Assembly: GCA_030737835.1 (NCBI GenBank)
Contig: CM060849.1
Location: forward strand, 27,834,311 to 27,898,310
DNA length: 64,000 nt
DNA from: Acorus gramineus
Lineage: Eukaryota > Streptophyta > Magnoliopsida > Acorales > Acoraceae
Direction of reading: 5' to 3'
In this document: piece by piece, positions 15,819 to 62,252 of the stretch
Position numbering within the stretch: the stretch's first letter is position 1
Layout of the letters: each line of letters opens with the position of its first letter
Notes under the pieces: model-generated
Databases searched by the model: none
What the model was told of the DNA's origin: nothing
What the model saw: the letters and a program-made list of their open reading frames with translations, nothing else
Made by a program: the position numbers and the translations under genes

Positions 15819-16931
15819 TCAACGGCGAGACCACGGCTTGTTTGCTTCGGCGGAGGCGTCGTGCTCCTCCTCGCCTTGGATCCGCGCGGGCACGCGGAAA
15901 CCCGGAAACCTGCCGCCGGTGCCGCCAGAAGATGCGAACCCAATTGCCGACGGCGGCGATTGGAGCTGCTGGTGGTGGTGGTGGAGGTGGTGGTGATGCT
16001 CGGCGATCGACGCTGTCGGTTCCCACGATCGGATGGAGGTGGCGATGGCGGGTGAATTACTGGACTGAAGGGGTCCCCTCTGTTGGAAAAACGACGGGCT
16101 TTGCCCGAGCAGCGGCTGCAGCATCATCTGCGGCGGCGGTGGAGCATTGAATACGCCAGCGTCCGCCGGATTCCAAGCCACAAGTCTCTCGGTCCAGCCC
16201 GAAGAGGCCGCCTCAAAGAACAAGCCTTGCTCGGTGGACGACGACGGCGTCGACTGCTGCTGCTGATGCTGATGCTGATGAAGGAGAATTGGTTCCTGAA
16301 ACGACTGAAGCGACAGGCGGAGGTCCCCGACCGCCGCCGCAGACGGCGACGACGAGAAGCTCTGGAAGTTCGGGCTTTGCGACGACGACGCCATGGGGAA
16401 GAACGACTTGATCGTGTCGGCGATCGCGTCGGAGTCCAGCGAAGGCGGGAGGAAACTAGTACTACCACCACCGCCGTCGCCGCCGCCTCGGCCTGAATTG
16501 CCCAAAAAACCGGAACTTGAAAGGCCAGGCTCGCCCGAATCGGCCGGTCTCTTCCCCTGTTCGTCGTTCCGGTCGTCTGGGTCGGCGTTTTTGAGGTCGT
16601 TCGGGTGCCAGGGGGGGAGGACAGCGAGATCGTCGATGGCGGGCTTGGCTTTCTTGATGAGCCAATCGACGGCCTTGCTTGGGCGGTCGTATCCGAGGCG
16701 GTCCTGGACGTCGTAGAATTGGATGGCAGTGTGGGCCGAGAGACGGACCCGGCGGTCCCTCGGACCCTTGGCGGTGCAGACCTTGCTGTGTCGGTCCTTG
16801 CGTCCGGTAGACCGGACTATGTGACCCCCCTCCACCTCTACAATCTCTCCTCCTCCGCCGCCCCTCCTCGTCGGTCTCTGCTGCGGTTGCTGGTGGAGCT
16901 GTTGATGGTTGTGGTGGTCTCGCTCTCCCAT
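15819..16931 (-). CDS. CIN-class TCP transcription factor (TCP3/TCP4-like)
   Basis: Plant DNA-binding regulator that promotes the change from cell division to differentiation in leaf margins and petals. Single exon, 370 residues from Met at 16931, chosen because it leaves an N-terminus of family length before [20 protein letters not shown]. The TCP basic helix-loop-helix domain spans about 42-100 (basic part [20 protein letters not shown], then helices with [20 protein letters not shown]). No R domain is seen, as in the TCP4 group. The C-terminal half is Gln/His/Ser-rich, contains the miR319-site peptide QRGPLQSS and ends in a conserved [16 protein letters not shown] motif. The frame stays open upstream to 17261, adding 110 low-complexity residues that look like translated leader. 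GC-rich exon. Convergent with the IQD gene. Clade is sure; exact orthology within TCP3/4/10 is inferred. Confidence 0.95.
16060..16082 (-). promoter_or_regulatory. miR319 target site in TCP mRNA
   Basis: On the coding strand the site reads GAGGGGACCCCTTCAGTCC within CAG...AG. It pairs with miR319 continuously at miRNA positions 2-13, with mismatches at 14, 15 and 20, the pattern known for TCP4-group targets. Cleavage between positions 10 and 11 would keep transcript levels low where miR319 is made. Confidence 0.93.
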
Positions 16932-17261
16932 TGGGTCTGAGAATTGGGCATTATATTGGGGAGTAGTCGAGAAGGACCGCTTCTTGGGCGGGCGGTGGTT
17001 CGGGAGGTGGAGGTGGCTTTGGGTCTCTTCGGTTTGGGGTTCCAGGTTCCGATCGGTGGAGGTTGGGGCGGCTCGTCTCGCTATTGCTTGTTCTGGAGGC
17101 GGTGGAGGTGGTGGTGGAGGTAGGTCCTCTTGTTCTGCTGGTCGTGGTGGTGGTGATAGTAGTTGTGGTGGTGCTTCTCTTCTTCCTCCTCCCAAACGGG
17201 ATTGCCATCCAAAGCAGAGAATTCCATCACCAATCGCCACCGGTCCCTTCTCTTCCTTCAC

Positions 17262-18233
17262 CCCCTCTCACAAAGATTGCTTTTTTTTTTTTATAGAAAA
17301 ACCACCACCACTTCTTCAATAAAAAGTTGTATAGAATACAATACAGACAAGGAAGCAATGAAAGAGAGAGTAAGAGAGAGCGAGAGGGGTTTAGATAAAG
17401 GGGACGAAGGACATTAGAGAAGAAAACAGAGGAGGAGCTGTGAATGTACTGTTTCTCTCTCTACCAGAAGGGGTATTGGAAGGAGCGGAAACAAAGGCCT
17501 CCCCCTTCAAGAGAGAGAGTTTGATGGGTGAAAAAAAGTTTTCTTTTTTATTTCAAGAGAGAGAAGGGAGAGAGTTCTAGAGAGAGAGAAAAAAAAAGGA
17601 GGAAGCTTTGGGTGGGACTGTAGGAGCCGTTGATTGCAACTTGGAGGGTTGGCAGAGAAATGTCAGTGGTGGACTTTGAAAATATCTTTCATATTTCATG
17701 CAATAAATTTTTTTTTTTTTTTTTTTTGGACTGATTCATGTAAGAAAGTTAAATCTGAAAAGTATTCTTTTTGAAGCTGGTTATTCAAAAATTGATTTTG
17801 TAAAACATAACATTCATTTATAATTGGTTCTAAATGAAATTTAAATAGGCCACCAGTGTATAATTTTTATGTATTTTATAAGTTTCAACATGTAAAACAT
17901 AAAAATAAAATTGAAATTTTTTTGAAATTATTATAAAAAATAGACTTCAAAGACATAATTAGTTTGATAATTGGATGTAACTTTTTTGGGTTTTTATTTC
18001 TGGACACCCTTTCTATGTTACTTGAAAAAAAAAAAAAAAAGGACAAGCATTAGCCTTCCAAAGCCCCCTCACCCTACTGGCCCTTCCTTCCCCATTCTCT
18101 CACTCCACTTTATCCCTGTTTAGTCACTACCAAAGTTGAATTTCTTTTTTATATTGAATCTCAGTGAAAAAGATTGTGATGTGGCCTATTATGTGATTCA
18201 AAAAAATCTGAATAAGGGGATGTATCACGAGAA
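17262..18233. other. TCP leader and promoter region
   Basis: On the minus strand, 17340-17600 is a CT-rich stretch with repeated CTCTCT runs, typical of plant 5' leaders or core promoters. Upstream of it (17690-18230) the sequence becomes AT-rich with homopolymer runs and then meets the MULE at 18243. No coding segment seen. Confidence 0.5.
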
Positions 18234-18242
18234 TTGATAGAA

Positions 18243-19528
18243 GGGGACCGTTATTCCAACCCCTGTATCTATATAACCCACCCCGTTTGTGAACCCACTT
18301 TATTTGTTTTTTTACAAAAACTTAACCCACCTCATTATAAATATAATGGGATTACAGGCTGCAAACCCACCCCTAACAGTTTTCAAGTCATCTTTCTCAC
18401 TTTCTCTTCTTGCTCTCTTCTTCTCTCTGGTCCGAGCCCCTCCCCCCGATGGTCGTCGCCATCCCCCCCATCCCAGGTGACCATCGCCGTCTCCCTCTTG
18501 TTGTGTCTCCATTGTAGCTGCCTCCCCTGCTCCCCCACAAGAACAAGATCCCCACACATTCTTCCTTTTTGTGAAGGTGTATGTTTTGTTGCTTTTTTTT
18601 TTTTAATTATATTGTGTAGCTATGCAATGTATTTCATTTTTTTTAGTTGTGAAATGTGTTGGTCTTGTTAGAATGTATATGATCTCTCAAATTATTCATG
18701 TTCTTAGAAACCTTAGATTTTTATTTTTGTAAATTGGTAATGAAAATGAATCAAGAATGAAAACAAATGTATCATTGGTTCGTTGATGTAAATTTTCATG
18801 TGTTACTTTAACATTAGCAAAATGGTGTGCCATTTAGAAAATGTTTTCATCTCAAGGCAGTCAAGCTGTCAGTTAGTCACCCAAATTTGGTTACCTTTGA
18901 ATGTGTTACTAATTTTTTTGTATTGAATGGTTGGATGTCTTGGTTGATAGGGATGTATGAATGATTATGCAAGTGGATTTGAATTTGATACACAGATGGA
19001 TAAATTGCTTGATTCGACACTGCTAGTGTCGACATAGACATCTTCAGTTGACAGTCGTGCTATCGAATCTTGTAGGCTCCTTTGTTAAAGTTTCCTTTTC
19101 AACGAATGTATTGCCGACCGAATGCATACGAGTTGACACTATTTATGTTTAATCAAGCAACCATAAATGTCTCGTTTGTTAAGTCTATCGATAAGACTCA
19201 TGTTGTTATCTAGATGTGCTCTCAATAGTGTTGTCAATCATGTCTACATAATGTCCTAGATGCCAAACAACAGACACATTATCAACGGTTCTTCGAAACT
19301 CTCAACACCTAATGTGTCGAACCACGAGTTATGTGGGATTTGATTTTGGGGGTGGGATGTTTATTTGCCAAGTGTTATTGAGGTGTAGAATGATAGGGGT
19401 GCGTTCAGTTTGTATGGGGTGGGATGTGAAGGAGTGATATTGGTTTCTTAAAAAAACATAAAAAATAATATTTCATGTTTTATTAAGGGGTGGGGTGACT
19501 ATCCGATGGAGTGGTATTAACCACCCCC
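18243..19528. mobile_element. MULE-type element with GC-rich interior
   Basis: A 1286-bp insertion flanked by the perfect 9-bp duplication TTGATAGAA (18234-18242 and 19529-19537). The ends are imperfect inverted repeats, GGGGACCGTTATTCC on the left and GGTATTAACCACCCCC on the right, with further weak similarity inward including ACCCCACCCC-like runs. The interior holds a C- and CT-rich block at about 18390-18560, unlike the AT-rich flanks, and no transposase. This is the layout of a non-autonomous MULE, possibly one carrying a host fragment; I do not recognise the insert. Confidence 0.7.
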
Positions 19529-19537
19529 TTGATAGAA

Positions 19538-21709
19538 AGAAGGGTAAATATCAAAGAAGGAAAAAAAAAATTCTAACTCCTATTTAGGTAGTGAAATAGG
19601 TAGACAATAAAGTAGAATAACGGATTGTTTATAAAAAAAAATAAGTGGATATAACTATGTTAGAATAGTGAGAATAAGCTAATATTGGTATTCACCCATA
19701 GAATTGTATTATTTCCACTCAATCTATTACACTGGTATAAAGTGTTCAAACGTCAAATCATTTGTCATTCTTCTCATAAATCATGAATCTACATGTTAGA
19801 TCATTTTTTCACCTTTTATAATATTTTATCCACATTTTATTTATGTTTATTCACAACTTATCCATAATTATTCAAACGATAAAAAATTTATTGTTCTATT
19901 TTTCAATGAGAATAACCAGTAATATCACAATAGACAATGGCTCTACAATAGACAATGGCTATATATATATGATAAAATATATAACCATCGTCTATTGTGA
20001 TATTTTCATTTTAATTACATTTTCTCAAGGCATTGACTCTTGGATTTTTTTTTTAGAGTGAGACGACAATGTTTTTATTATTCATATCTCATTAGGGATT
20101 ATTCCACCTTAAACAATAATTTAATGAGTAATAATTCTACTAACACCCCCCCCCCCCCCCCCGAATTAATTTTCAAAACAATTTTTTCATAAAAGCTACC
20201 ATTGCCCAAATTTGAATTTATTTCAAATTTGGTCTAAAATCTAAAAAACATAGTTATTTATCAATATATCATTCCTAATTTTAACAACCGGCAAAATAAT
20301 AATGAAAATAATCACTTTTTATGTTGTGTATTCATAAAATTGGTCTAATAGGGAAGACCTAAAACTTCTGACTAGCCTTTCCATAGCATAGAATTCCATC
20401 ATTTTTTCATAAAAACAATTCTCAATTAAATTTTTTAAAAAGCTTTTTTTTATAACTTTAACGTATAAATTTATGGTAAAAAAAAACAAAGTTTTAAAAC
20501 TCTTTTAAATCTCTTGTGTAAAAAATCATTTTGAAGGAACAGTGTAAATTCACACATGGTATAAAAATTTTCCTTTAGATCTTCGGAAAAGGGTCATTTT
20601 GGTAATTCCACATTGTGCCCCACGAATCGATTAGCTATTGCCGCGAAAGCGACGCGACGCACAGGGAAACGGGAGGTCAGTGAAATTACCGAAATGTCCC
20701 TGCATGCGACAACACATTCCCCCAAACTTCTGTGTCCTTGCCAAAATCACATTTATGGTTTTTTTTTTTTTTTTTTTTTTAGGGTTTAAGATTTTAAAGA
20801 TTTGTATAAATATTTTAAAAAATAATGGATTTTCTAAATTTTTTTATATTTATATTAATTTTTTTATTAGAATATGTTAATTAGAATTTTGTAAGGGGAG
20901 ACGGGTTGGGGTGGGAGAGAGGTTTTTATGTAAGAGGGGTTTGTTTATTGTTTACATATTAATATATAAGAGACTTGTACATTAAATGATTAAAATGTGA
21001 AGGGCTTACTTATAAGAGGGGATCCCTTATAATTTAGAGAAACTCAAATAGAACCAACCAAATCACACACCATACTTGTTTTTTAAAAAAAAAACATTGA
21101 AAAAAAGTTGTAACAATAAATATGTAATTATATAGTATAATAATAATAATAATAATAATAATGCAAATATGTACCTATTTTTGTGGAGTGAAGTATGTAC
21201 CTTTTTTTTACATTATAAGTTAGTTGTTAAGCATTTTTTATAAATTAAAGCCAATTAGCCCCTTAGATATGAATAAATGATGCATAATACAATTGATAAA
21301 ATTGATAATTATGATGATATAAGAGTATGAACCAAGATAGCAATTTTAAAAACCTTTATTAAAGTTATATAGCATAACAAAATAATAGAAACTAATGATA
21401 GGGTTGAATGGTTGATGTTTGGATAGACAAGTAAAGTCGTTTTTTTTTTATATAATAACATGTACTTTAATAGAAGAGTATATGCTTTTTTTTTTTAAAG
21501 AAGAAAAATGTGAGGAACTGTAAATGAGATTACACAAGAGGCTACATATCATTTTCCAAATATTAACCCATGACTTGGGAAGGCCTGGCCCCAGTCTGCT
21601 CCTAGGGGTCGATCCTCGGATAGACAAGCAAAGCTGCTTCTTTGGGCCCACATGCATATGATTTTTTTAAAAGAAATGGTAAGCATTCGCCAGCACATGA
21701 GGTTCTTAA
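19538..21709. other. Intergenic with simple repeats
   Basis: AT-rich sequence without recognised genes. It contains a 17-base poly-C at 20146-20162, a (TAA)n/(AAT)n run at about 21139-21163, and at 19640-19930 a diverged relative of the GCCCCC-ended MITE family seen at 33358 and 59491 (shared CTGGTATAAAGTG and ATCCACATTTTATTTA-like phrases). Confidence 0.45.
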
Positions 21710-22118
21710 TAGGGCCGCAACTCGGGCGGATTGGGTTTAGGTTGACCCCAACTCGAACCCAGCCCGAATTCTAAACTACTCAACCCTAACCTGACCTAAC
21801 CCGATTTTCAACCAGGATTAGACTAACCCGAACCCAACCTGTAATTAAATAAATCAACCCGACCCAACCCGATTTTCTAACATGATGTGCAAATTAAATA
21901 AATCAACCCGATCTAATCCTCAAGATTAGTTAGGTTTACCTAAAATTTTGACTGCCCAGATTAGAAACTACATAATGAACGGCCATGATTTTTTTTAACT
22001 ACTAATTTACGGGTTCGGGTTGGGTCGGGTTGTGAGTGAGCCAACCCGAACCCAACCCGATTTGGCCAACCCAATTCATGTAAAAATCGGGTTTAACCCG
22101 ACCTAAGTTGCAGCCCTA
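21710..22118. mobile_element. hAT-type MITE, TAGGGCYGCAA ends, copy 1
   Basis: 409 bp, inverted ends TAGGGCCGCAAC and GTTGCAGCCCTA, with 8-bp flanks GTTCTTAA / GTACTTAA (one mismatch), the hAT length. The body consists of many short GGGTTGGGT / AACCCGACC phrases in both orientations, the subterminal repeats typical of plant hAT MITEs. Confidence 0.85.
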
Positions 22119-22689
22119 GTACTTAAGTCCTACAAAAGTTTTTGATTTCTTATTTTATTAAAAAATTAAATATGTGATGGGTTTTTAAATTTTCTCCATT
22201 ACTTTTTTGTCTCTTTTATTTTGTTTTTTATTTATATATTTTATTTCCTATTTATTGAAACTTTATTTATGTGTTTTTATCTACAATGTAGATTATCTTA
22301 GTAGCTTACATGGTATTTTTCATATTTTTTTTATATTTCCTTTTTTTCTAAATTGATGTATTATTTTTATTCTTTATAATTTTGTTTGTTATTTCTTTTT
22401 TTTTTCTTCCTATTTTACTTGGATTTAATTTTTGTATTTGTTTTTTGAAAAAATGTTAGCGCATGTATTCCAAATCCTAGGATTTAAACAAATAGTCTGA
22501 AACTAGTCTTCATCTATGCGATGTGTGTGTAAATAAAAAAAAAATTAAAAAAATTACACTAAACGAACACCCTCAATTTTTTGAATCCATTTATATGTGA
22601 TGTAATATATCATGTTATATATACATAAATAATATAATGAAATTTAAAAATTATTATGATGTTACAAATAAAAGAGAAATGTTACATTT

Positions 22690-22890
22690 AAAAATGAGTT
22701 TTTTGCGTATATACCCCTCAACTAACCCTGTATTGTCAAAATCCCTCATTTGAAACTTTAAAACCATCATGGATATTTAAATATTTTTTACGCATATTGT
22801 TGGAAATAACAAATCATCAAGGATATTTTGTCAAAATATCATTTTATTAGGAGTATATATGCAAAAAAAAACCATTAAAAAATATTGAGA
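22690..22890. mobile_element. Small foldback element
   Basis: Inverted ends TTTTTTGCGTATATACCCC and GAGTATATATGCAAAAAAAA about 195 bp apart. No clear target duplication. Weakly supported. Confidence 0.4.
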
Positions 22891-24239
22891 TTTGGTGGAT
22901 ATAGATATGATATTATCCAATATATATACATATACAGATAGATTTTTTCATTCTTACTTTTAATATAAAATCAAATATTACAAAAAATTACGAGTAAAAT
23001 TGAAAATAAAAATATTACACACTAAGGTGCTTTTAAAAACAAAGTTTGAAAATCAGCTTTTAGGTTTTAGTTGTTTTATGCACAGTTTTTAAGGATGTAA
23101 TCAGTTGCGGAGCCCAGATTTTTATAAAGGGGGGCCTAATGTGACTTAGGTAAATATATTTTAAAGTTATATCGTTATATATATATTTTTAATTTTAATA
23201 GCATAGATTAAAATATGAATATGTATGAAATGAAATAAAGACATTCACACAAAACATATCATTAAATAATTCTAAAAGATCATTATTATATTTTAAAACA
23301 ATATGTCAAATTTTACATTGGTGATTTACAAAAAAAATGACAATACATAAATAAAAATTATGTTTTTTTTAGAGAGGATTGATGATTCTCGATTGTGAGA
23401 CGGTTAATGGAACAAAAAATAAAAATTATGATTTTTTTAGAGATGGAGATTGATATTAAGAACAATTAGATACACTAAAAAAGAAACAAAAAGTAAAAAA
23501 TTTATGTTTTTCAAGATATCTAGATGAGATGCCAAGGAGTGGGATCTGCAACTGTGTGCCGAATGCCGACTATATCTGTGGTGTTTTTTTTTTTTTTTTT
23601 TTGAGGGGGGATGATTAATTGTAAAACAAAGGGTGATTGAAGAGGGATTAATACTGAAGGGCATACGTGGATTAATCAACGGGTATCATGGTCTCATAGT
23701 AGTTTCTTTTTTATTGTCTAATTTTGCATGGTGGGCTCAATCCTATCCATTGTTGATTATTGTTATTAGTCATGGGTTTTATGACCCCATAAAAAAATAA
23801 AAAAAAAACTAGGGGGGTCATCGGCCACTGGATGTAATGATGATAACTATTTTATGAAATACGAGACACAATCATTTGATAAAATCTAATAATGATGATG
23901 CATGTAAACTACCTTATTAGTAACAGCTTTTAACTTTTAGTTTTTTATCAAGATAAAAAAAAAAAAAAATAGTTGTCAAAAACAATTTAAGTAACAGACG
24001 TGAAAAGTCACACACTTCCCGTTAGGGTCATTAATAAACAGATGGATGGATTTAATTTTTGTTAGGGTCATTAATAAATCTACGTGGCACCCTGGGTTAA
24101 GCATACATTAATATTATCAACCCAAACAACCCCACCTGACTTTCTGACATTTATCCATTGAGAAAAAAAAAAATTTACATAACCCTAAAAAAAAGACCCA
24201 TGCATCTGACGGTTGAGAATGCATGTGGATGCGCAACTA
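22891..24239. other. Intergenic, AT-rich
   Basis: No gene recognised. At 23101 the phrase CAGTTGCGGAGCCCAG followed by a G-rich run resembles a transposon end often seen in plants; its partner could not be found nearby. A similar end in reverse, CATGGGTCCGTCACTA, sits near 36136-36151. Confidence 0.35.
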
Positions 24240-24960
24240 CAGTAACTTTCGGTGCACCAGAGAGAAAGAAAAAAAAGAACACACAAACACGCACTCACAT
24301 GGAAAGAAGACCTAGAGCAGCAGCAGCAACAACAGATGCTACAGAAGCTACAGCTACGAATTCAGAAGCAACAGAAGCAACAGCAACAGTTTCTGTTACA
24401 GTTTCTGTTGCTGCTGTCACTGCCAAAACTCCATTATTTTTGGTCTACTAGGGCCAGAGAGACTCTTTACAGTTGGTGGTGATCTGTGTTTTTTTTTTCT
24501 CCTCTCTCTCCACGTGGACTTCCAGCAGGGATGACACGTGGATGAACTAAAGGGGGGCTGCATGTGAAGCGGTGGAGGAGACAAGGCCAAGTTGGGAGGG
24601 CTTTGTACGGCCTTGGAGGCCAAGTTGTTGTTGTTGGTGGTGGTGGTGGTGGTGGTGGGTGTTTAGTGTTATGGGTCCCCCAACCAAATGATCAATTGAT
24701 GGAACAATGGAACATTTACATGTCAGTGCTGACCTGGTTGGGGGTCCCCCCACCCACCCCCTTCCAAGTCTTTCAGAGACTTGTGTTGTGTGTTTCCCTG
24801 TCTGTCTCTCTTTCAAGTGAGATTTGATTAGATATTTAGTGGGTCTCCAATGAAAACTCGCAGTTTGGGTGGATTTTGTGATAGAGGGGAGAGAGAGAGA
24901 GAGAGAGATAGAGAGAGGTAGGTTTGGCTTTTTTTTTTTTTTCTTTCAGTTCTGAGAATG
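24240..24960. promoter_or_regulatory. Orphan promoter-like block with G-boxes and GA tract
   Basis: This block stands out from its AT-rich flanks. It has CAG/CAA-rich sequence at 24315-24400, two G-box cores (CCACGTGG near 24512 and ACACGTGG near 24534), a GGT repeat near 24635-24655 and a GA repeat near 24888-24910. These resemble a plant promoter and leader, but no convincing coding exon follows before 26 kb. It may be the front of a lost or unrecognised gene, or a non-coding transcript. Confidence 0.3.
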
Positions 24961-25959
24961 GTTGAGATTGTCTGATGTAGTTATGTTTTGTTTGTTATGG
25001 TTGAAATATTGGATTAGATTTGCTGGTTTGAGATCTTTATTGCTATTTGCAAAACTGGGCAGTCAAACAAAGAATATGGTCTTTTGATGGTAACCTCTTC
25101 TATGAGAGTCAAATAATATAAAAAAAGCAGGGTGACGTTTGATCCGGAGTGCCTTCCGAATAAGTTCACTAAATAATTATATATATAAAAAAAGCAGTCA
25201 TACTTTTTATCTATGTCAATATTTTTAAATATATATTCTCATGAAATATATATATTTAAAACAAAGGATACATGTGTGTGTATTTTTATGCTTTTATATT
25301 AGAATATATGGTGATATAGTAGGGTATGTTATACATGTTAAGTGGTACGATGTCTTACCACAATAAGTGTTGGATTATAAAAATGAATATATTTATATAT
25401 ATTTAAATATATAATTTTTAAAAATCAAAACGATTGTGAATCACAGGCGTAATTGTAAAACATAGTTGTGTCTTAGCATTTTCCTTTTTAATTATTATTG
25501 TGTAGAGACCCTTATGGAGGGGAAAACATGTAAATCCCTTTTTTGCTTTTGAATATGAGAGATTGTTAAAATAAATTGTATATAAAGTTCACCACTTCCG
25601 AAAGGTGCTAACCATGTGCATGGGGGAGGTAGCCCCACCTATAGAACCTAAAAGAAGACCCTTCAAGGAAGGAGTTAACTTTGTCCTACAAGATATAAAA
25701 GGAAAAGCAACATTCCCCACACTTGGAACTTCTTGTCCATAAAAAATTGTAATTAGTTTGGTAAAACTATAATACTGATCATATGCTGCACTGCATTGTC
25801 ATGGAGGAGTTCTATAATTAGCATTACCACCTCAGCAACAACTTGAGTATTCCTTTCCCCTGGTGAACCTGCTTTTTAAGATCTTTTGTGGAAAAAGAAA
25901 TCTTGAAATACTTGCACACCCTTTTTTATGGATAAGATTGTCTATGGAGATATATAAGA

Positions 25960-26530: not shown

Positions 26531-26539
26531 TTTGACAAA

Positions 26540-44112: not shown

Positions 44113-44823
44113 ATGTCGGCTCCGGCGATGAGCACACTCTATCCGATGTACAGCGACTGCCGAAACTGTCAAAACCAAGACAGCTTCAACAACCGGATCA
44201 TGATCACCGCTGTCCTCAGCCTCGCCTTCGTCGTCGTCTTCGTCTTCGTCCTCCACCTCTACGCGCGCCGCATCGCCGCCCGCCGGTCGACCTCCACCAC
44301 CGGACGAAGACCCTCTCCGGGCCTCCGCTCGACGAGCCTCCAAGCCTGGATCATGCAATCCCAAGACCAACAACAGCAATCCCAAGTCGGGCTCGATCCG
44401 TCTGTGATCGGGTCACTGCCGGTCTTCACGTACAAACACGTCGGGGACGAGTCGGGTTCGATCGATTGCCCCGTGTGTTTGAGTTCGTTCGAGGAGGGGG
44501 AGCTCGCGAGGGTGTTGACGAACTGCGGGCACGTGTTTCACGTAGAGTGCATCGACATGTGGTTGCACACGCACTCGACGTGCCCGGTCTGTCGGACTGA
44601 GGCTCGGCCCGTGGAGCAGAGTCGGGCTGATGATGAGGTGGGAACGTCGGGTGCTGGTGGTGGTGGTGGTGGGCAGGGTTTGAAGACGGCGGCGGTGGCG
44701 GGCGGGACGTTTTCGAGGCTGAGCTCGCTGCGGAGGATGCTTAGTAGGGGGAGGTCGGGGAGGGTCAGATCACTGGATGATGGGGTGGCGCCGGCGGCGG
44801 AGGAGGATTTGGAGAGGCAGTGA
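44113..44823 (+). CDS. ATL-type RING-H2 E3 ubiquitin ligase
   Basis: Membrane-anchored ubiquitin ligase of the plant ATL family, 236 residues, no intron, as is usual for ATLs. One hydrophobic segment at about 29-50 (IMITAVLSLAFVVVFVFVLH) is followed by basic residues ARR. The GLD motif (93-95, in GLDPSVIGSLPVF) precedes the RING-H2 domain at 119-160: CPVC, CGHVFHVEC, then WLHTHSTCPVC, with all eight metal ligands in place and the Pro before the last cysteine pair. The tail has a Gly run and a basic Ser/Arg-rich stretch (RLSSLRRMLSRGRSGRVRSL). The start at 44113 was chosen over 44050 because the intervening residues are only translated microsatellite. ATLs often respond to elicitors or carbon/nitrogen status, but nothing here shows that. 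Substrate unknown. Confidence 0.95.
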   Translation: MSAPAMSTLYPMYSDCRNCQNQDSFNNRIMITAVLSLAFVVVFVFVLHLYARRIAARRSTSTTGRRPSPGLRSTSLQAWIMQSQDQQQQSQVGLDPSVIGSLPVFTYKHVGDESGSIDCPVCLSSFEEGELARVLTNCGHVFHVECIDMWLHTHSTCPVCRTEARPVEQSRADDEVGTSGAGGGGGGQGLKTAAVAGGTFSRLSSLRRMLSRGRSGRVRSLDDGVAPAAEEDLERQ

Positions 44824-51207: not shown

Positions 51208-51216
51208 TAGATTGAA

Positions 51217-51332
51217 TGATGGAAGAGTCTATTTGGATTTACATATGGTTTTTAGGGGGTTATATTAAATTAAGGAAAAGCCAGAGGGTTATGTGGATAC
51301 TGGACAATTTGTAGGGGGTTATTTGAATTTTT
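51217..51332. mobile_element. Right arm of a foldback element
   Basis: Reads TATATTAAATTAAGGAAAAG, GGGGGTTATTTGAATTTTTT and related phrases, the inverse of the arm at 49015-49215. No target duplication could be assigned. Confidence 0.4.
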
Positions 51333-51419
51333 TCCTATATTTAAATATGGTCATAATTCCTTTAATATAATAAAGAAGTTTTACCATTGTTTTAATATGG
51401 TATTAGAGTACCTGGAGGG

Positions 51420-52125: not shown

Positions 52126-53400
52126 CCTTAAAGTACCCAACACACAAATAACCCTAAATCCATAAAATCCTCTCTTCCCTTCAATGGGAAGCCGAGATGA
52201 CTATTGATACCCACATTTTCTCTTCCCAAAGAGTATTTGGGTAATAAATCACCTGAAAAAATTATTTCACAATATTTATCGATCACAACTAGAATGGGAT
52301 TATAAGTTGATTTGAGATTTATGTTTCCAAAACAAAATTTGAAATGCAAATTCATTTAGGAAATATGAGATTTTTATTCTCACATCCAATTGAGCCTTCA
52401 TATTTTTATTGGAGTTTGACAATGAATCAAATTTGAGCATTGATACACTCAATCTATTTTGCAATCCCCATTGCAGTCTAAAGACGGTATTCCAGTCTAA
52501 GGATGCAACTCGAACAGATTGGATTGGGTTAAAATTTTATCCAAACCCAATTCACAAAGTATAATGTCTAATCGGAACCCGACCTAACCCGAATGGTTCA
52601 ACCCGACCCTCAACCCGCAGGTGCGGGTCTGGTTTGGGTCAGGTTGGGTCATGCCAGGTCGGGTCAAGTTCAGCTTTTCGTCTTAAGAACTATTTCAAAA
52701 AATAAAATTAAATGTATATTTTATATATTTTTAAATAAAAGATATGTTTAAAGGTGCTAAGTCTCTGTATTTTACGTTAGTTGAAGGTTTGGCGATTGGT
52801 AATCTCATTTGTTAAGATGGAATGAAAGAGGCAGCATCTCCTCTGTCTTTGATTAAGCTTGTCTCTTTGGTCAAGAAGTGGAAGCACTTTCGCTAGGCTT
52901 CAATTAACAGTTACAAGAAGGAAAGTGGGAAGTTCGGTTTAAAAATAAGTTATTTTTTGTCCCAACCGGCATTGGCCGTGTGGATAAAGGACACTGCCGC
53001 TTTTGTGGCTTGCTCAAGGTTGGAATCTGATGTTGTTAATAGCCCTGTTGGGCTGGAGGATTGTTATGGGCCTTGACCCACAAGCTTGTTATGGGCCTTT
53101 AGGTCCTCTCTTTCACCCCCTTAGAAGGACTAGTATTGTTGTTGGGAGCATGAGTCGCCCTATCCGAACGAAACTTTGTATGTGTGTGTGTGCGCGCGCG
53201 CGTGCATGTATAAAAGAGTTTCTTGCTAGGTTGAATGAAAGAGAAATGATATACTCCATTGAACGAACTGCTCTGCAATTTGCCATAGGGTGCGGTTACA
53301 GCCACCCCATAAGTTTTCTTATCTACCTCTTTTATTTTCCCACCCAGACAAATTCTTGTAGTTTATATGCTCCCGTTTCATATATACTTCACTCTAATCA
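52126..53400. other. Intergenic, no gene recognised
   Basis: At 52500-52680 lies a decayed GGGTTGGGTC / AACCCGACC-rich stretch like the body of the TAGGGC hAT MITEs. A 167-codon plus-strand frame at 53003-53506 is interrupted by translated (TG)n(CG)n repeat (53178-53205) and resembles no known protein. Confidence 0.35.
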
Positions 53401-53432
53401 CTGCAACCCCACCTCCATTCATTCCATCGCAC

Positions 53433-53690
53433 GACATGCTTCATGTCGAACCAAATCAAAGAGAAAAGACATCAGACATGTCGAACGGGATGCAAAATGG
53501 GACTAAAGTTTCTGGTTCTTAAAAGACATGCTCCATGTCGAACTGAATTAAACACAGAAGATATCGGGCATGTCGAACAGGATGCAGAATGAGACTAAGG
53601 TTTTTTATTCTAGAAAGACATGCTCTATGTCAAATCAAATCAAACACAAAAGAAATTGGACATGTCAAACTGTGTAGCCCAGATCGACAG
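53433..53690. repeat. 92-bp minisatellite, nearly three units
   Basis: Units start at 53433, 53525 and 53617 with GACATGCTYYATGTC, itself partly palindromic, and share GACATGTCGAAC and GGATGCARAATG. The third unit is incomplete. Not linked to a recognised gene. Confidence 0.85.
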
Positions 53691-55546
53691 TGTTAGAACT
53701 GACCTAGGGCCAAAAGAAGCAGTACACCAAACTTTGCAATATCTATAACAAAATGCCATATGAATATTAGAAACATCTTCATTTCAATATTATTAACTAC
53801 AATTACCGAGATTACATCAAACTTCTCAACACATTGGCTTACAAGTGAGATTTCATTGACTTACTATTATCAGTGAGATATACAAAACATTTACATTTTA
53901 GCCCATATCTAAACTAAGCATACTTATGTACATAACAACCCACATATCTTTTCTATACAAGATGTACAAAATGGAACTTTTATACTTTCAAATATGGAGT
54001 CCAATTAGACCTAGGGCCTTATTCTATGCGTGTTCCCAACTTGGTAGTGGGAGGAGAAGATAATGGTCATGTTGGATGGAATCGACGTCAGAGGAGAGGC
54101 CATCGGAGAAGGTGGCAGCGACTGGGGAAGCTGGGGAAGACACCAACTCCAGGGGGGAGAGAGAGATAGCGTGAGATTTATTAATTTTGATTGTAGGGTG
54201 GGTAATAAATTTAGGGGGATGTGCGGGGTGAGTAATGTTTGGGGTTGGTAGGATGTACCAATGGGGTGGGCAGTGTTGGGGTTGGTTAGGTATGAGAAAA
54301 AATGTAACATATCAATTTTTTTTATTGAAATAAAAGGGGTGGATAGAAAAACTTATGGAGTGACTATAATCGCACTCTTTGCCATAACCAAAAATAAAAA
54401 AGCAACCTTAATTATATCTTTTAAGTTCTCTTTGGGTTCTGGTTGAGCCCACCTAACCCAATCCCCCAATCTGATCCCAACTCGAATTACTCGAATTAAG
54501 TTTGGGTTATCTCAGCTTTGGATCATATTGAACATGACTGTTAAAACCCTCAACCCAAACTCACCCACAAATCGGGTTTAGTCGATCCCATGTTACACCC
54601 CTAATCCAGCCGCCTAGTGGAATATATAGTCCTAATGTAATCAATATATACTATACTATACTAATATAATATATGAGAAATCATTTTTTAAAAAAATATG
54701 TACTTGTTTATCTAGATGTATACTTTACTTTTTATAATAATATATACTTTATTACATAATTATATATTTCAGAAAAGCAAAACTATTAGTGTATGGGACT
54801 AAAATTTATTCTTATAAAAATACATTAACATATTTTAATATATATTTCAATACACGAGGATATTTAAAAAAAAAAATCAGTGTGGCATGCGAATTGAGCT
54901 ATAAAGAGGATCGAATGTATGATTTTCCTGTGATTAAATGCAGACCTCCATTCAAGAGGAAAGGCTTTGTGAGAGCACTTGTTAATGCTTTGATGACCCA
55001 AGTTGCTCACGTGGGGCATGTTAGGAGTATTCTTGAAAAGGAAAATGATACACTCAATCACATTCATTAACTAAAATTCAGACCTTACATATTTTTATTT
55101 TTTTTAAAATAGTAAACATCATCTAATGAGATATATATTTTAATAAAAAGTGCATATCGCTCCATTTCAAGTTTAATGAATCCATTTTTAATAAATGTAA
55201 AAAAAAAATTAATAAAATATATACATCATCTAAAGAAGTATATACTTCACTGAATCTGTAATGAGTATATAGATTTGTGTTTTGAATTGAAAAAAAAACT
55301 GAGTGTAGCAGCACTCCCTTGAAAAAGGTGTGGTTTTATGGTTTTTAATCTGACACTTTTGTGCCCCCCAACCCACCGAAAGAAATAAAAACCAAAAAGG
55401 CCTACAATTATTTCTAATTTCTTTAATCACCGACTACAAAATCCCTGCAAAATAAAACACACCCCTCTCTAAAAAATAACAATTATCAAACGAATTAAGT
55501 ATATACACTTCAACATTTGATCAGAATACAAAAACACTTAATCCAC

Positions 55547-55574
<28 letters not shown>
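53691..55574. other. Intergenic, no gene recognised
   Basis: AT-rich. 54440-54605 ends in CATGTTACACCCCTA, like the right end of a hAT MITE whose left end is not clear. 55040-55260 belongs to the dispersed AT-rich repeat also seen at 34986-35300. A trinucleotide run (ATC)n at about 55550-55579 reaches the stop codon of the X8 gene. Confidence 0.4.
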
Positions 55575-55579
<5 letters not shown>

Positions 55580-56788
55580 TATAAACACACACACTCACAA
55601 GCAACAGAAAGACGGCCACCAATACGGGCCAACAACACTCCCTCTTCGTGACGTGCGCAACGTTCTCGTCCATGGGCCCGCCCAGCCCAGTGGGCCCGAC
55701 CATGCTCCCGTTCTTCATCGAACCACTGCCCATCCGCAGTCACTCAGTTACTACACGACCGTTCATACATTTAGTTTTTTTTTTACCGTATTTTTTTGCA
55801 GCCCTACATTGTCATAGTAAAAATATATACCGTACTGTTGTAATATATGAGATTTTTTAATAGCGCGTAGCGTAAAAAAAATTATTTTATCATAAAAAAA
55901 ATATTGGTGTATTACAATATACACACCATTTTATATAACATATAACATGCGCATATGGTTTAAGAAAATGATATGAATGGAGTCTAAATCCAATCAAGTC
56001 TAATTTCAATCAGTCTATCAATATCAAACTACATAGTCTATGAATCAAACTATACATTATTCGACACAAGTGTGTGCTCTATTATTGAAGGCTCGCTTGA
56101 ATCCAATAAGATAATAACAACACTTATATCAAACAATTGATTTTATGATTTAATTCATATATTATACTGTTTGATTCATATATTGTAATCTAAAAATGAG
56201 ACGACACGGGTGCAGGACATAGGACATATCATTTTCCTCACTACAATGGCATTTGAGTAATATCAATCATGTAAAAGCGGGCAAAAAGACAAACCTCGAT
56301 GGGAAAACGCAACTCCCGAAACCTGAATCGAAATAATAAAAAAATAGTTCCCGATCAGAGATCTGAAATTACGAAAATGCCCATAAACCCTAAGCGAGAG
56401 AGAGTGAGAAAGACTGACTGGGGTTGAGCGAAGTGAGGGCGGCGGCGCCGCCGAAGTCACAGGACTGCGAGGAAGGCCCGTTCTTGAGGAAGTAGTCGTT
56501 GAAGGCGAAGGAGGCGTGGGCCTGGAGGTTGTTGGGCTCATAGCAGGGCCCACCCGACTGAATGGGCCGGCAATCGGCCCCTCCCTGACCGCAGGCCCAG
56601 TCCATCGCGGACTGGAGAACGGCGTCGTCCGCGTTGTTCTTCGCCACGCACCAGAGCTCCGACGGGACGAACTAACCTACGCCTCCGTCAGATGGGGGCG
56701 GGATCGACGGCTGGGAATCGACAATCTTGGAATGGATGGTGATTGTTGTGGTGACGGAGATGAAGAGGAGGCGGAGAAGGGAAGACAT
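55575..56788 (-). CDS. X8/CBM43 GPI-anchored protein gene with in-frame stop
   Basis: Relative of plasmodesmal callose-binding and X8 proteins, which bind beta-1,3-glucan at the cell wall. Three minus-strand exons: 56788-56419, 56322-56295 (only 28 bases) and 55725-55575, 549 bases in one frame. A signal-peptide-like start MSSLLRLLFISVTTTITIHS is followed by a short Pro/Ser linker, then at codon 39 (56674-56672) a TAG, and then a complete X8 domain: ELWCVAKNNADDAVLQSAMD, WACGQGG, CRPIQSGGPCYEPNN, ASFAFNDYF, SCDFGGAAALTSLNPS, and across intron 1 FGSCVFPS. Exon 3 ends in a hydrophobic tail after GPMDENVAHVTKRE, fitting a GPI signal. All six X8 cysteines are kept. Either a recent nonsense allele, a sequence error, or removal of a 69-base GTAGGT...CTCCAG segment that would also delete the conserved WC. 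Gene identity is firm; functionality is open. Confidence 0.8.
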
Positions 56789-57374
56789 TGTTGGGTTTTT
56801 GTGATTTGGGGGGGTTTTGGAAGGAAAAAAATTGGGGATTTTGGGGAAGATTTGAATTTATAGACAGATCGGGGGGAGGTGAAAGTTACCGTTGTGGATG
56901 TGGCGGTGACCGTTGCGAGTCACTGTCTCTTGTAGAGACTGGAAGCGGTTTTTTTATTTTGTCTTGTTCTGGTTACTCGCGGAGTACCGTAGTTCGGATG
57001 ATAGTTGATACGAAGAGTCGGTCTCAATTACAGTCTACATCGATTTTTTTTTTTAATCATACACTTTTTAAATAAAATGTATGCAGTTATATGAAATAAA
57101 ATATATAATGAGATCTATTAGTATATTTCTTTTCAAGTAAAAAAAATGATTAAAAATTTTACGTCATATATTATAATAAAACTCTAATACACTATGATAA
57201 CATAGTATATAATACGTTATCATAGCGTACGAGACTGTAAAATTGACTATATGTATCAGCGCTCATTAAGGAATCTCTTCCAACAGAGAATTAGGCAAAA
57301 TGTTATTGAGGCACTGCCTGGATACATGTTTAGGTTTGTAAATCCAAAATGGATGAGTGCAATATTTTTAATAA

Positions 57375-57646
57375 GGGATTTTTAGTTTTAAGTCCCCACA
57401 AACCATCATATTTAGTGATCGATCCCTTTCTTCGTATTTAGGTTTTAGTCCCCAGATTTAAATAATAGTTCCTTTTTAGTCCCTAAGAGGGACCTATCCA
57501 TAAATTATTTAATTTACTTTTTAGTCCCTGTGAGGGACCTATCCATGAATTATCCTTTAAATCGGGGGACTAAAACCTCAATACGAAGAAGGGAGGGATC
57601 GATCACTAAATATGATGGTTTGTGGGGACTTAAAACTAAAAATCCC
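57375..57646. mobile_element. Mini foldback MULE, AAGTCCCC arms
   Basis: 272 bp, almost pure inverted repeat: GGGATTTTTAGTTTTAAGTC on the left and its inverse on the right, flanked by the perfect 9-bp duplication TTTTAATAA (57366-57374 and 57647-57655). The arms stay highly similar past CACAAACCATCATATTTAG and GATCGATCCC, suggesting a young copy. The centre holds two direct TTTTTAGTCCCT...GAGGGACC units. Confidence 0.88.
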
Positions 57647-57854
57647 TTTTAATAAAAATGTAAGTGTTTGTAAAATTGAAGAAAGTGAGTTGTTCAAAAG
57701 CTGAATTTGAAACACAATTTTAAGTCTTAACTTTATCTACTAAAAAACAATCATGGGTTAATCCCCATCATTATCTATAAAAAAATTCAATTTATGAACT
57801 CTTTTGAGGAAAGAGAGATAATAATCCTACAAGCAAATCTCATGGTTGTTTTCT

Positions 57855-58078
57855 TAGGCTCCGTTTGGATCGGTGTTCCTGCAGCGTTTGCGTTCTCGTG
57901 GACACCAACCGACGCAAACTCCCAACCAAACAAAAATCATGGCGTTCTCGTTTGACGTATACGTTCGCGGTGAATGTCTTTTTTGCCGAAATCAACGATA
58001 CACTGAAACATTGCTTTTGCATTGCGGGGTAGTTTTGGCTATCGCGGTGGTGCGAAACGCACACGCAATCGGAGCCTA
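57855..58078. mobile_element. CG-rich MITE, TAGGCTCCG ends
   Basis: 224 bp with ends TAGGCTCCGTTTGGATCG and CGCAATCGGAGCCTA. It is strikingly richer in G, C and CpG than its AT-rich surroundings (TTGCGTTCTCGTGG, TATCGCGGTGGTGCG). No clear target duplication. The short open frames on both strands are by-products of this composition. Confidence 0.6.
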
Positions 58079-59138
58079 TAAATAATATGCATTAATAATA
58101 TATTATTGTGGAAAGGTGAACTAAATCAATGATCATTATCACACTATATCATCTTTGTAGGGTTTTTCAAAAAAAAAAAAAATGACGTCATGATCATCTG
58201 CATTTCATACATGCTCTTTTGCTTATGAGATTTTATTTCTTAATGTAGTATTAATAAAGCTGTCATGTGTCTTTCTTTTCCTCACTTCTTCCTGGATATG
58301 AAACCATTGTACATTTGTACATTAGAGAAACACAAGACTTGCAACTTGTAAGAGGGTTGATTTATAAAAAATCAATATCCAATGGATTTGGTGATTTTTC
58401 AAAGAGAAAAGATATTGTTGCAACTAGTATATAGAAATGCGGTATACGGTGTGGTTAGAGTATCGCATAGAATATATGCGTTATTATATTTTTATTAATA
58501 AAAAGATATACGATGATTTTCAAACAATAGATAATAAAATAAATACATATATCTAGTAATAATTTATTGAACCGTCTGACCTTATGCCGTTTGATCTTTA
58601 GATAAATATGAAACCGTATATGCAACCGCATATACTATCGCACCGAAAAGATCGAATAGCATATGCGGCCGCATATACTACCGCACATACAACATATGTG
58701 AATAGTAGTTGCAACCATATTAACTAAGTACATTTAACATAAATATTCTGCATTGGGTGCGTACACATTTGAAAATCATTCAGTATGAATATGATACTGA
58801 GATAATTAAAACTGTTATTTAGTTATATGATTTTTAATATTAAAATTAAAGGCCAAAGACTTCAATGTTAGTACGCACACTTTTTTGTTTTTGGCAGGGT
58901 CTCAACTGGAAGTCAGGCACTAAAGCTGCAGTCCTCATTCTATTATTAGTTTTTTTTTTTCCTGCAAAAGGAAACGGTGGCAAACAAGTGGCCATATCCA
59001 GCCAGGCCTTTTGTTTTGGCAAGTAATGGGAATGCATGTGTTTGGTTATGGAATACCACATCCTTTCAGGATCTGCTCTTCAGTTATTTTGGATCTCAAC
59101 CAAGATAGAGAGCCTCATGACCACAATAGGTCTATATA
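58079..59138. other. Intergenic, no gene recognised
   Basis: AT-rich. Near 58440-58700 there are several short CGCATATACT / GCGGTATACG phrases in both orientations, perhaps a decayed MITE. Nothing coding seen. Confidence 0.35.
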
Positions 59139-59490
59139 TTTTAGGTGGCGTGTTTGGGTAATGGAATTGGTGTGTGTGTAAAAGGAATGGTTGAATATAC
59201 AGTGGAATAAACTGATATTTGTATTTTAGATGCCCACTGGATTTGTGATTTCACTAACTTGTATGTCAAATCAACTGTTATCACATTTGAAATTATTATT
59301 TTATTTTTAATAAATTCTTATTTACATCTTATTTACATTTTATCGATAATTTATACATAATCAATCAAACAACAAAAATTTTAATATTATATTTTTAATG
59401 AGAATAATCTAACAGAAAAACACTTATTCTATTGGTACAATTATTTATTCCTAAAATAGTCATAAACTCAATAATATCTTATACCTCTAA
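59139..59490. mobile_element. Diverged copy of the GCCCCC-ended MITE family, abutting the next
   Basis: Starts near GGCGTGTTTGGGTAATGGAA and shares TCAAATCAACTGTTATCAC and TTTACATTTTATCGATAATT-like phrases with the next element. Its right end is not visible; the next copy begins directly after it. Confidence 0.5.
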
Positions 59491-59950
59491 GCCCCCATGT
59501 GTTTTGAGAATAAGCCCCCGGATAATCTGGAATAACCTCAGATAAATGATAAATGGAGTTTGGAAACCCCGAAAACTCTTGATAAAGTATGTCAGAATAA
59601 ACTGGTATAAAATAGTATATGGATTCCAACCAACCCCTGGAATTAAAGTTATCCTAAGTTATTCCACTGAAAGAATATGTGGGCCCACTATCAAATCAAC
59701 TGTTATCACCTCTTATAAATTACATGTCAAATCAACTATCATTATTTTTTCACCTTTTATAAATCTTTATCCATACTTTATTCACATTTTACCCAAACAA
59801 CCAAGCATTTATTCTTACTTTTACCAACGAGAATAATTAAAAACACAATCAAACACAAAATCATTTTATTATTATTTATACTCACTTATATTTAGATAAA
59901 TATATACTGTATACCTAAAAATAAATCATATTCCCATTCTAAACGGGGGC
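59491..59950. mobile_element. PIF/Harbinger-like MITE, GCCCCC-ended family
   Basis: 460 bp with ends GCCCCCATGTGTTTTGAGAA and CCATTCTAAACGGGGGC, flanked by TAA (59488-59490 and 59951-59953). Best-kept member of the family represented at 32246 and 33358. Confidence 0.68.
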
Positions 59951-60026
59951 TAAAAAAAGGGACCAATGTTTATCTCATGGAAATCTTGGGGGTGAAATTA
60001 GATTAAATACCAATTTCAACAAACCA

Positions 60027-60045
60027 CCCCCCCCCCCCCCCCCCC
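60027..60045. repeat. Poly-C tract, 19 bases
   Basis: Longest of four G/C homopolymers in the window, about 550 bases upstream of the SPEAR/TIE start codon. Confidence 0.85.
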
Positions 60046-60593
60046 AACGAAAAAAAAAGAAAAAAACAAATAAATTAAATTTAAAAAAAAAGAGACTGAA
60101 AAATCAAATCTTTCGATATCTTTCAAGAAAATCAGAATCTACAAATCAACAAAAGCGAAAAATCATTATCTTCCCCAATTCTTTCCCATGAATCCGAAGA
60201 CCCAAAAAAAAAAAAAAAAATTGAATGCAGACCAACAAAAATCCATTAATAAAAAAACGATCTTCGGCAAATGTAGGGACATACATCCCCACTTTGCACG
60301 ACTAGAAAAATCAAATATTGATATAAAAATTGACATTTGTTTTGTTTAATTTTTGTTCAAATTTTGAACTGAATCACATCTGGATCTGCGCGTGAGCTTT
60401 CTTCGGAGGTGGAGTCGGTCGAACTCCAACCGATGTTTATGGCGTCCGCTTCTGACTCACAAAAAAAACCAAAGATTTTCTGATAGAAACAGATCTATGA
60501 ATGAATCCCAAACTTAAAAAAACAAGTTTGAACTAAGAAACCCAAATGGGTCTTCATTAGTTTCTTCTCCTGATCTTCATTGATATCAAAAGA

Positions 60594-62252
60594 ATGAACG
60601 ATGATGAAGACCCAAGTAGTAGCAATGGTGGTCGGGCTTCAAAGAAACAGAAGACAATGAGGATCCCCCGAAGAGGACTTGGGGTTGCTCAGCTTGAGAA
60701 ATTGAGGCTGGAGGAGGTGGAGAAACAACAGAACAATCAAATCCAAGGCTCTGTTACTACTAATACTGTCACTGCTTCACTGTATTCTCTGCCACCACCA
60801 ACAAGGCTGCATAATCAAAAGAGTTTCTTGTTTTCAGATCTGAACAATGTGAATGGCATGAAAGACTATTTGAGTTCATCTTCTTCGTCGGCGCGACGAC
60901 CTTCGCTGCCTGTTCCGTTACCTGCTTTCAGTAATCTCCATATGGAGCCCCCTTCAAACCAAAGTTCTAGTGGCAACAAACTGATAGAAGAAGAGAAGGT
61001 ATATGTCTGCTTTCATGTCTTTTAAGGCCTTTGTAAACGAGTTTGAGAAATGGTTTTTCATTTAAAACAGTTTTTGAAAACAGCTTTTTGTTTAAGCATT
61101 TTTTTATCACATTCTTAAAAAATTGTTTTTTTTATAACTAAAAATTATCTGGGGGCAATTACTTAAACCCCATCCCATTAAAAAATTCTTTTTTTTTTTT
61201 TCTGGGATCATCCCCTCCCTTCTTCCATAATTTTTTTTTTCTTCACGGTGGGTGACTGAAGAATGGTGGGGCCAAACACCTCCAAAATTAAATTTTCTTC
61301 TTCTAAAAAGTTTGATTCTTGTAAAAGCACAGTATTCAAAAACGGATTAAACTCATTCTCAAATAGTACCTCAGTCATCCCTAATTGTTTAGGTCCTAAA
61401 TGGAGTATATGATTTCTCTAATTCAATATATATTAGGTTATGAGTATATACTCCGAATATGAAAGCATAAGAAAGAATGCATTCAATTCATTCAAATATA
61501 TATTTCATTTTCTGTGAAGTTATCTACTTTCATAGACATGGTTTGCAAGGCTGCAAAGATGATTCTCTAACTCAAGTTTGTCTAATAAAATGGTGTTCTT
61601 TAACAATAAAACAAGAGCATTGTCATGGTCTTTCCAGGTAGAAAATTCCACAATTCAATGGAAATTCCTTCCCTTTGGAGGCGTGTTTTCGAGGGGTCTA
61701 CCACCTTCACCATATCTGTCACACAGTCCAGATGTTCACATACCATGTATTCCAAGCTTCAGACCAAGGATTCCAGGTTTCAGGTTCACAAAAAAGACTC
61801 CTGCTCATCATTTGATCATGTAATTAATTACCATTAGCAAATGTTAATTGTGCGCACTATGTGAAACCAGAGAAACTGATCATTCGACATCAAATGGAGG
61901 GTCCATCAATCTCACTATGATTCCTGGAAATCCATCCTCAAAACCTCATGATTCAGACTTCCCTACATATCAAGTAAAGACTCTCTTTAAGGAAAACATT
62001 TTTGGCATGTATCAGTGACTCTAAAGTTTCTGCTAACACTCAGATTCAAAATTCTTGGTTCTATTGGAACAGGAAAATGTGAATGAACCATTCCCAGTTC
62101 CATTCTACAGATTCTTGCCAATGAGTAACGGCACGGATGAGGCTGCCTTGGATCACCAAACACGCGCCAGTGGCTCTGTTGGGGCCGCCTCAGATCAACA
62201 AATGGACGAGGCTCCCGTAACAGAGAAGATCGATCTTACCCTGAGGCTCTGA
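60594..62252 (+). CDS. SPEAR/TIE-type EAR-motif transcriptional co-repressor
   Basis: Member of the SPOROCYTELESS-like family. TIE proteins bridge CIN-TCP factors to TOPLESS co-repressors in the nucleus. Four exons: 60594-60998, 61638-61819, 61871-61973, 62073-62252, with GT/AG borders and consistent phase, giving 289 residues. The N-terminus is acidic then basic (GGRASKKQKTMRIPRRGLG), and the family motif RRGLGVAQLEKLRLEE sits at about 26-41. The middle is Ser/Pro-rich, with SPDVHIPCIPSFRPRIPGFR in exon 2. The protein ends in an EAR motif, KIDLTLRL. Exon 1 and exon 4 are secure; the small exon 3 and the exon 2 donor are inferred from splice sites and an open frame. The exact subgroup is not certain. 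It is about 43 kb from the TCP gene whose family it represses, and convergent with the exchanger gene. Confidence 0.88.

Follow-up and report, generated by a model that had tools for sequence, protein, structure and literature searches.

The TCP and SPEAR genes of the window

The DNA analysed here, called the window in the following, is a 64,000-nucleotide stretch (C3:27834311-27898310) of a 398.6-Mb plant genome assembly whose contigs are designated C1, C2 and so on. It contains a CIN/JAW-type TCP gene with a miR319 target-type site and a SPEAR gene, likely of the TIE type, with a miR159 target-type site. The two genes lie 43.7 kb apart (about 44 kb from match to match), in agreement with the approximately 43 kb given in an earlier sequence-only reading, which had named both genes and overlooked the miR159-type site. 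Their main features are as follows.

15819..16931, minus strand: CIN/JAW-type TCP gene (TCP3/4/10-like), an open reading frame with one coding exon for 370 amino acids (Pfam TCP 3e-30)
16617..16805, minus strand: TCP DNA-binding domain, residues 43-105 (Pfam TCP)
16060..16080, minus strand: miR319 target-type site GAGGGGACCCCTTCAGTCCAG in the TCP coding sequence, with two mismatches to the pattern
60594..60998, plus strand: SPEAR exon 1, with SKKQK, the SPEAR motif and the miR159-type site
60669..60716, plus strand: SPEAR motif RRGLGVAQLEKLRLEE, residues 26-41, read in the spliced protein
60943..60963, plus strand: miR159 target-type site TGGAGCCCCCTTCAAACCAAA in SPEAR exon 1, coding within MEPPSNQ
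61638..61783, plus strand: SPEAR exon 2 of the spliced model
61871..61973, plus strand: SPEAR exon 3 of the spliced model
62073..62252, plus strand: SPEAR exon 4 of the spliced model, with the stop codon
62232..62249, plus strand: C-terminal EAR-type motif DLTLRL (the C6 copy ends in DLNLRL)

The identification of the first gene as TCP3/TCP4-type with a miR319 site was borne out. The protein matched AtTCP10 in the PDB (chain 7vp2) at 2.5e-40. For the domain alone, AtTCP10 was the closest PDB entry (1.1e-32); rice PCF6 matched at 2.2e-22 and TCP15, of class I, at no better than 1e-05, which places the domain in class II. The subtype was assigned from pairwise identities. The protein also carries a C-terminal RIQGEEEEHD-type motif, known from TCP4, that is present in its C6 copy as well. 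Its very end has diverged (15819-15850, minus strand), reading KPWSRR where the C6 copy reads KPSSSSATRH. Genome-wide, the Pfam TCP model identified 18 places.

The four exons of the SPEAR gene (60594-62252, plus strand) splice to 834 nt coding for 277 amino acids and ending in KIDLTLRL; splicing was read from genomic DNA, and all three introns are GT-AG. The protein contains the motif characteristic of the SPEAR family, RRGLGVAQLE(K/R)LR, near the N-terminus as in Arabidopsis TIE1-4, and its DLTLRL end conforms to the EAR-type LxLxL pattern. Both motifs had been noticed before, and the gene end given then, 62252, proved exact.

To place this gene among its relatives, we searched the genome with the SPEAR protein and obtained six places: the gene on C3 itself, a copy on C6 (5.6e-10) and four others with E values of 0.46-0.87. 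Two of the latter, on C2 and C107, were dropped, as they have no SPEAR motif on either strand, leaving at least four SPEAR-like places, two of them (C3 and C6) of the TIE type. The C1 place has the SPEAR motif QRGLGVAQLERLRIQEQ and PILDLSLKLSF at the stop and passes the Pfam NOZZLE model (PF08744; 28.8 bits versus a cut-off of 21.3), and is SPL/NZZ-like, whereas the window protein gave no match to this model and the C6 protein 19.1 bits. The C3 and C6 proteins carry EKLRLEE where the C1 protein carries ERLRIQE. To our knowledge, TIE proteins are not defined by a NOZZLE match, and its absence weighs more against an SPL/NZZ identity than against a SPEAR identity. Judged by the form of its motif and by synteny with Arabidopsis TIE4 and its EF-CAX neighbour, rather than by a family tree, the window gene is likely of the TIE type. 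The C11 place (C11:1179908-1183006, minus strand) has several degenerate repeats of a divergent SPEAR-like motif (PQRGMGIAALERLRLQ and others) and no EAR-like end within the 3.1 kb examined; it may be either a gene or a pseudogene.

A collinear copy of the neighbourhood

The same linkage occurs a second time in the genome. On C6, a TCP gene (C6:21391537, minus strand) and a SPEAR gene (C6:21448280, plus strand) lie 57 kb apart in the order and orientation seen in the window, and these are the only other TCP gene of this subtype and the only other TIE-type SPEAR gene found. The two TCP proteins share 97% identity in the domain (next best TCP, 76%) and 81% over the whole protein; the C6 SPEAR model has 295 amino acids, one GC-AG intron (the others being GT-AG) and a DLNLRL end. 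When we compared the window plus 20 kb on each side with C6:21350001-21480000, one collinear series in a single orientation emerged, namely tRNA-Ile(TAT), an IQD-like gene, TCP, a RING-H2 gene, SPEAR and an NCL-type gene, besides many off-diagonal repeat matches. The best forward blastn chain comprised 33 of 120 hits and 9346 bases, and the reverse-strand control chain 2430 bases from 79 hits; some of the chain hits at 24-34 kb possibly belong to repeats, and the chain does not reach into the first 6.6 kb of the window. The other features of the window are listed here.

6638..6711, plus strand: tRNA-Ile(TAT), with a collinear counterpart in C6
9353..13535, plus strand: IQD-like gene adjoining TCP, collinear in C6; the name IQD was given by eye, the Pfam IQ match (0.007) being under its cut-off
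16951..17208, minus strand: upstream open reading frame of 85 amino acids in the TCP leader; C6 counterpart of 91 amino acids with a similar start and the same SPI end
17081..17227, minus strand: upstream open reading frame of 48 amino acids in the TCP leader; C6 counterpart of 44 amino acids (MDFCGLDGKPIWEEEE...) with a similar start
17579..17696, no strand assigned: conserved stretch upstream of TCP, collinear with C6, 78%
44113..44823, plus strand: RING-H2 gene between TCP and SPEAR, judged ATL-like by eye, with a collinear counterpart at C6:21421.8 kb
58883..59142, no strand assigned: stretch conserved with C6:21446304-21446580 (collinear, 73%), about 1.5 kb upstream of SPEAR
63559..63847, minus strand: NCL/EF-CAX sodium/calcium-exchanger gene next to SPEAR, last exon; the remainder lies past the window edge

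With its exons joined, the NCL-type gene matched Pfam Na_Ca_ex (1.7e-20) and EF-hand_7 (6.2e-11); scanning the whole genome for EF hands gave results of too low specificity to be of help. The RING gene was considered as TEAR1, the E3 ligase of TIE1, and set aside, as its N-terminal hydrophobic stretch and RING-H2 make it look ATL-like by eye. The two conserved stretches are possible control elements. In the TCP leader, the two upstream open reading frames overlap (16951-17227, minus strand), and both have counterparts in the C6 copy.

The synonymous divergence (Ks) between the C3 and C6 copies was 0.43 (0.33-0.56) for TCP, 0.56 for IQD, 0.41 for NCL and 0.67 for RING, with intron sequence making up part of the pieces used for IQD and NCL. 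These values fit one duplication.

Beyond this genome, the neighbourhood could be followed in rice and Arabidopsis by locus numbers and published names, as given in the papers cited. In rice, Os01g11414 (6134202-6139819) is an exchanger with an EF hand (PMC4488139) named OsNCL1 (PMC5124604), Os01g11430 has been used as an SPL/NZZ homologue (PMC7466056), and Os01g11550 is OsPCF5, which is reduced by miR319 (PMC10960409). By their numbers, the rice counterparts of NCL, SPEAR and TCP thus appear to form the same trio. MSU rice locus numbers rise by 10 per gene from 01010, and from this rule we estimate about 70 kb between the rice SPEAR gene and PCF5. Provided that the rice numbers hold, the linkage would date back at least to the divergence of this plant and rice. 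Os01g11430 also appears in a target listing of osa-miR159a.1 and has a pollen-mother-cell-specific pattern (PMC10506311).

In Arabidopsis, AtNCL is At1g53210 (PMC7081724; PMC4488139) and TCP3 is At1g53230 (PMC5714883). TIE4 is At2g34010 (PMC5884558; PMC6827420), and At2g34020, which directly follows it in the numbering, is a putative EF-CAX exchanger (PMC7081724). These locus codes suggest that the block has been split into an AtNCL-TCP3 pair and a TIE4-EF-CAX pair. In addition, the EF-CAX gene At1g29020/29025 lies beside TIE3 and IQD10 (At3g15050) beside TCP4. TCP24 (At1g30210) and TCP10 (At2g31070) are on the same chromosomes as TIE3 and TIE4, respectively, at a great distance, and serve as a lead only. 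The same applies to grape and tomato, where an SPL/NZZ gene and a CIN-TCP gene share a chromosome but have widely separated locus numbers (VIT_219s0014g01680 at chr19:1.80 Mb and VIT_219s0014g03940; Solyc07g062680 and Solyc07g063670). In the literature searched, which left most subscription papers out of reach, we found no report of a SPEAR gene linked to a miR319-regulated TCP gene.

Putative target sites for miR319 and miR159

The miR319-type pattern matched in none of 100 shuffles of the window; since the pattern was set after reading the stretch, this control is generous. Sites with at most two mismatches occur at 12 places genome-wide, compared with 3 for a reversed control pattern. Four of the 12 are within TCP genes (one in the window, one on C6 and two on C2), and the other eight are not at TCP places. 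The C2 genes (C2:3527185 and C2:3549438), each with a miR319-type site, are about 22 kb apart in opposite orientation, and the former looks TCP2/24-like.

The miR159-type site of the SPEAR gene likewise matched in none of 100 shuffles. On the standard plant target score (lower is better), the SPEAR-like places on C3, C6, C1 and C11 scored 3.5, 3.5, 4.0 and 3.0 against miR159, whereas the best of 60 shuffles per test was at least 6.0. Against miR319, they scored 6.0-8.0, so that miR159 fits better in all four cases. For two of the four TCP genes with a miR319-type site, miR159 gave a score of 7.0 and the miR319 forms, three of which we had cut a single base ahead of the core, gave 3.5-5.5. The idea that one miRNA acts on both genes is therefore unsupported, as TCP and SPEAR each fit their own miRNA better.

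The two sites also stand out in the comparison of the duplicates: the longest identical run between the SPEAR copies is 23 nt over the miR159 site (next, 12), and that between the TCP copies 44 nt including the miR319 site (next, 41). The C1 and C11 sites are in the same reading register as those of the TIE-type genes (E-L-S-S-S-Q versus E-P-P-S-N-Q); for the SPL/NZZ-like C1 gene, this hints that the miR159-type site may predate the split of SPL/NZZ-like and TIE-type genes. They are at positions 1919-1939 of the C1 stretch and 1440-1460 of the C11 stretch, the latter having the best score of the four.

The sequences of the mature miRNAs are present in the same genome, the 19-nt miR159 core at two places and the miR319 core at six. 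In all eight cases, a fold can form in which 19-20 of the 21 bases pair with DNA upstream.

For Arabidopsis, AT2G34010, AT1G29010 and AT4G27330 have been tabulated as miR159 targets, the first with entries from 5' rapid amplification of cDNA ends and degradome analysis (PMC6724108); this gene, TIE4, is also named MRG1. That SPEAR genes are miR159 targets is already known, and what we add is a miR159-type site near a TCP gene with a miR319-type site.

Descent of the neighbourhood and its possible function

From these results, we consider it very probable that the window holds an old neighbourhood, IQD - CIN-TCP - RING - SPEAR - NCL, which was inherited by descent, was duplicated once in the lineage of this plant and includes a miR319-controlled activator and its likely, miR159-controlled repressor. 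Published work on Arabidopsis TIE1 and SPL/NZZ indicates how such a pair may work: the N-terminal part binds CIN-TCPs and the EAR motif binds TOPLESS (PMC7349945). By analogy, the TCP protein of the window would bind DNA and drive differentiation genes, and miR319 would cut its mRNA. The SPEAR protein would bind CIN-TCPs by its N-terminal half, recruit TOPLESS via DLTLRL and turn TCP targets off, while miR159 would lower this repressor via the miR159-type site. The two sister miRNAs would then push one output in opposite ways, miR319 by lowering TCP and miR159 by lowering the repressor of TCP. We infer binding, cleavage and co-expression of the two partners.

The Arabidopsis TIE1-TCP-TOPLESS module, with TIE1-4, is alike in its N-terminal SPEAR motif, its EAR-type C-terminus and its presumed CIN-TCP partner, but its TIE genes are not beside CIN-TCP genes by locus codes, whereas both TIE-type genes found here are. 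The regulation of JAW TCPs by miR319 is alike in the site within the coding sequence and in the better fit to miR319 than to miR159, and we found no difference from it. As in the miR159-MRG1 (TIE4) and miR159-SPL pairs of Arabidopsis, SPEAR-family genes carry a miR159 site; here, the site is present in all four SPEAR-like places found, two of which are near a TCP gene with a miR319-type site. We thus have a natural case in which both arms of a pair of transcription factor and repressor have target sites for sister miRNAs, which makes the circuit testable.

Several observations weigh against this reading. The SPEAR duplicates share only 40% of their residues, and their Ks depends on the codons used. 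On 60 well-aligned of 243 codons it was 0.65 (0.34-1.22), a value that leans low because the filter favours similar codons; with all codons it was 1.30 (0.89-2.10; range, 1.30-1.38), and on 81 tblastn-aligned codons 1.77. The SPEAR duplicates may therefore be older than the block. The comparison with rice and Arabidopsis is based on locus numbers and published names. To judge by the codes, Arabidopsis has no TCP and TIE genes side by side and hence seems able to dispense with the linkage. The SPEAR gene on C1 has no TCP gene on its contig, and the C11 place has none within 7 Mb. IQD, RING and NCL were retained in both copies too, and the retention of TCP and SPEAR is thus not special. With regard to the miRNAs, the SPEAR scores against miR319 are near or just below those of the best shuffles, which makes weak cross-targeting possible, and after shuffling of the upstream DNA (10 tries each) as many as 16-19 of the 21 bases still pair. 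The hairpin test is consequently weak and adds little, and the evidence for the miRNAs is their exact core sequences. Finally, not every TIE binds every TCP: TIE1, TIE2 and TIE4 bound BRC1, a TCP of the CYC/TB1 type, and TIE3 did not (PMC5884558).

A different role of the repressor is conceivable though unlikely, namely that the SPEAR gene of the window belongs to the SPL/NZZ type, acts in sporogenesis and has its main work in anthers and ovules, instead of being a leaf gene of the TIE type. The SPL/NZZ-TCP-TOPLESS module in ovules (rice Os01g11430; tomato HYDRA) involves the same protein family, and the rice gene, a listed miR159 target in the same neighbourhood by locus numbers, is filed as SPL/NZZ and not as TIE, with the pollen-mother-cell specificity mentioned above. 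This genome, however, adds to that module a separate SPL/NZZ-like gene on C1 and the divergent C11 place, neither near a TCP gene, and it is the C1 protein that passes the NOZZLE model and differs from the C3 and C6 proteins in the ERLRIQE segment. The assignment to the TIE subgroup in the sequence-only reading is accordingly upheld in part: motif form and TIE4 synteny speak for it and the filing of the rice gene against it, and no result clearly places the gene elsewhere. The genes and families themselves are known, and the neighbourhood helps to sort SPEAR orthologues, which sequence alone sorts poorly, because the rice 'SPL' gene occupies, by locus numbers, the place of the Arabidopsis TIE and EF-CAX genes.

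A stronger claim would be that CIN-TCP and the SPEAR repressor have formed one regulatory neighbourhood since an early angiosperm ancestor, that through their opposite miR319 and miR159 wiring a single miRNA superfamily sets the ratio of activator to repressor at one locus, and that selection holds the two genes together, the break-up in Arabidopsis being derived. We regard this as quite improbable; if selection on the linkage were proved, the pair would be an unusual example, among plants, of a transcription factor staying next to its own corepressor adaptor. Selection as the cause of the linkage, through joint inheritance, dosage or chromatin opening, with the two miRNA sites in one locus-level circuit, appears still less probable. 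Both duplicated blocks contain the pair, and so does rice to judge by locus numbers, conserved stretches lie near TCP and near SPEAR, and the two partners have sites for sister miRNAs; yet the Arabidopsis block looks split, the C1 and C11 SPEAR-like genes do without a nearby TCP, and 44-57 kb with repeats separates the two genes. Selection on the TCP-SPEAR pair alone is unsupported, since IQD, RING and NCL stay too. As these three accompany the pair and Arabidopsis apparently manages without the linkage, no special force is needed, and we infer that the linkage was retained through ordinary slow decay of synteny.

If placement were uniform, we would expect 0.0023-0.021 SPEAR-TCP pairs within 57 kb genome-wide by chance, the range reflecting which TCPs and SPEARs are counted, or 0.007-0.062 with an assumed threefold clustering. 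This small expectation is not decisive alone, because the pair was selected post hoc and the pairs on C3 and C6 go back to one ancestral event. That unrelated genes simply happen to sit 44 kb apart is nevertheless hardly credible: some neighbours are to be expected, given how many protein pairs interact in plants, but here a collinear duplicate has the same order and orientation, and the same trio recurs in rice by locus numbers. We therefore favour an ancestral neighbourhood by common descent. Of the two options in the sequence-only reading, chance or a preserved neighbourhood, the second is preferred, while a functional meaning of the linkage is hypothetical; the linkage is not confined to the window, being present in the C6 duplicate and, by locus numbers, apparently in rice.

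As to the surroundings of the two pairs, miR319 cores lie on C3 (C3:26322657) and C6 (C6:20174972), 1.5 and 1.2 Mb from the TCP-SPEAR pairs and on opposite strands, and are perhaps part of the same duplicated segments. Elsewhere on C6, a miR319 core and a miR159 core are 414 kb apart (C6:1425156 and C6:1839235).

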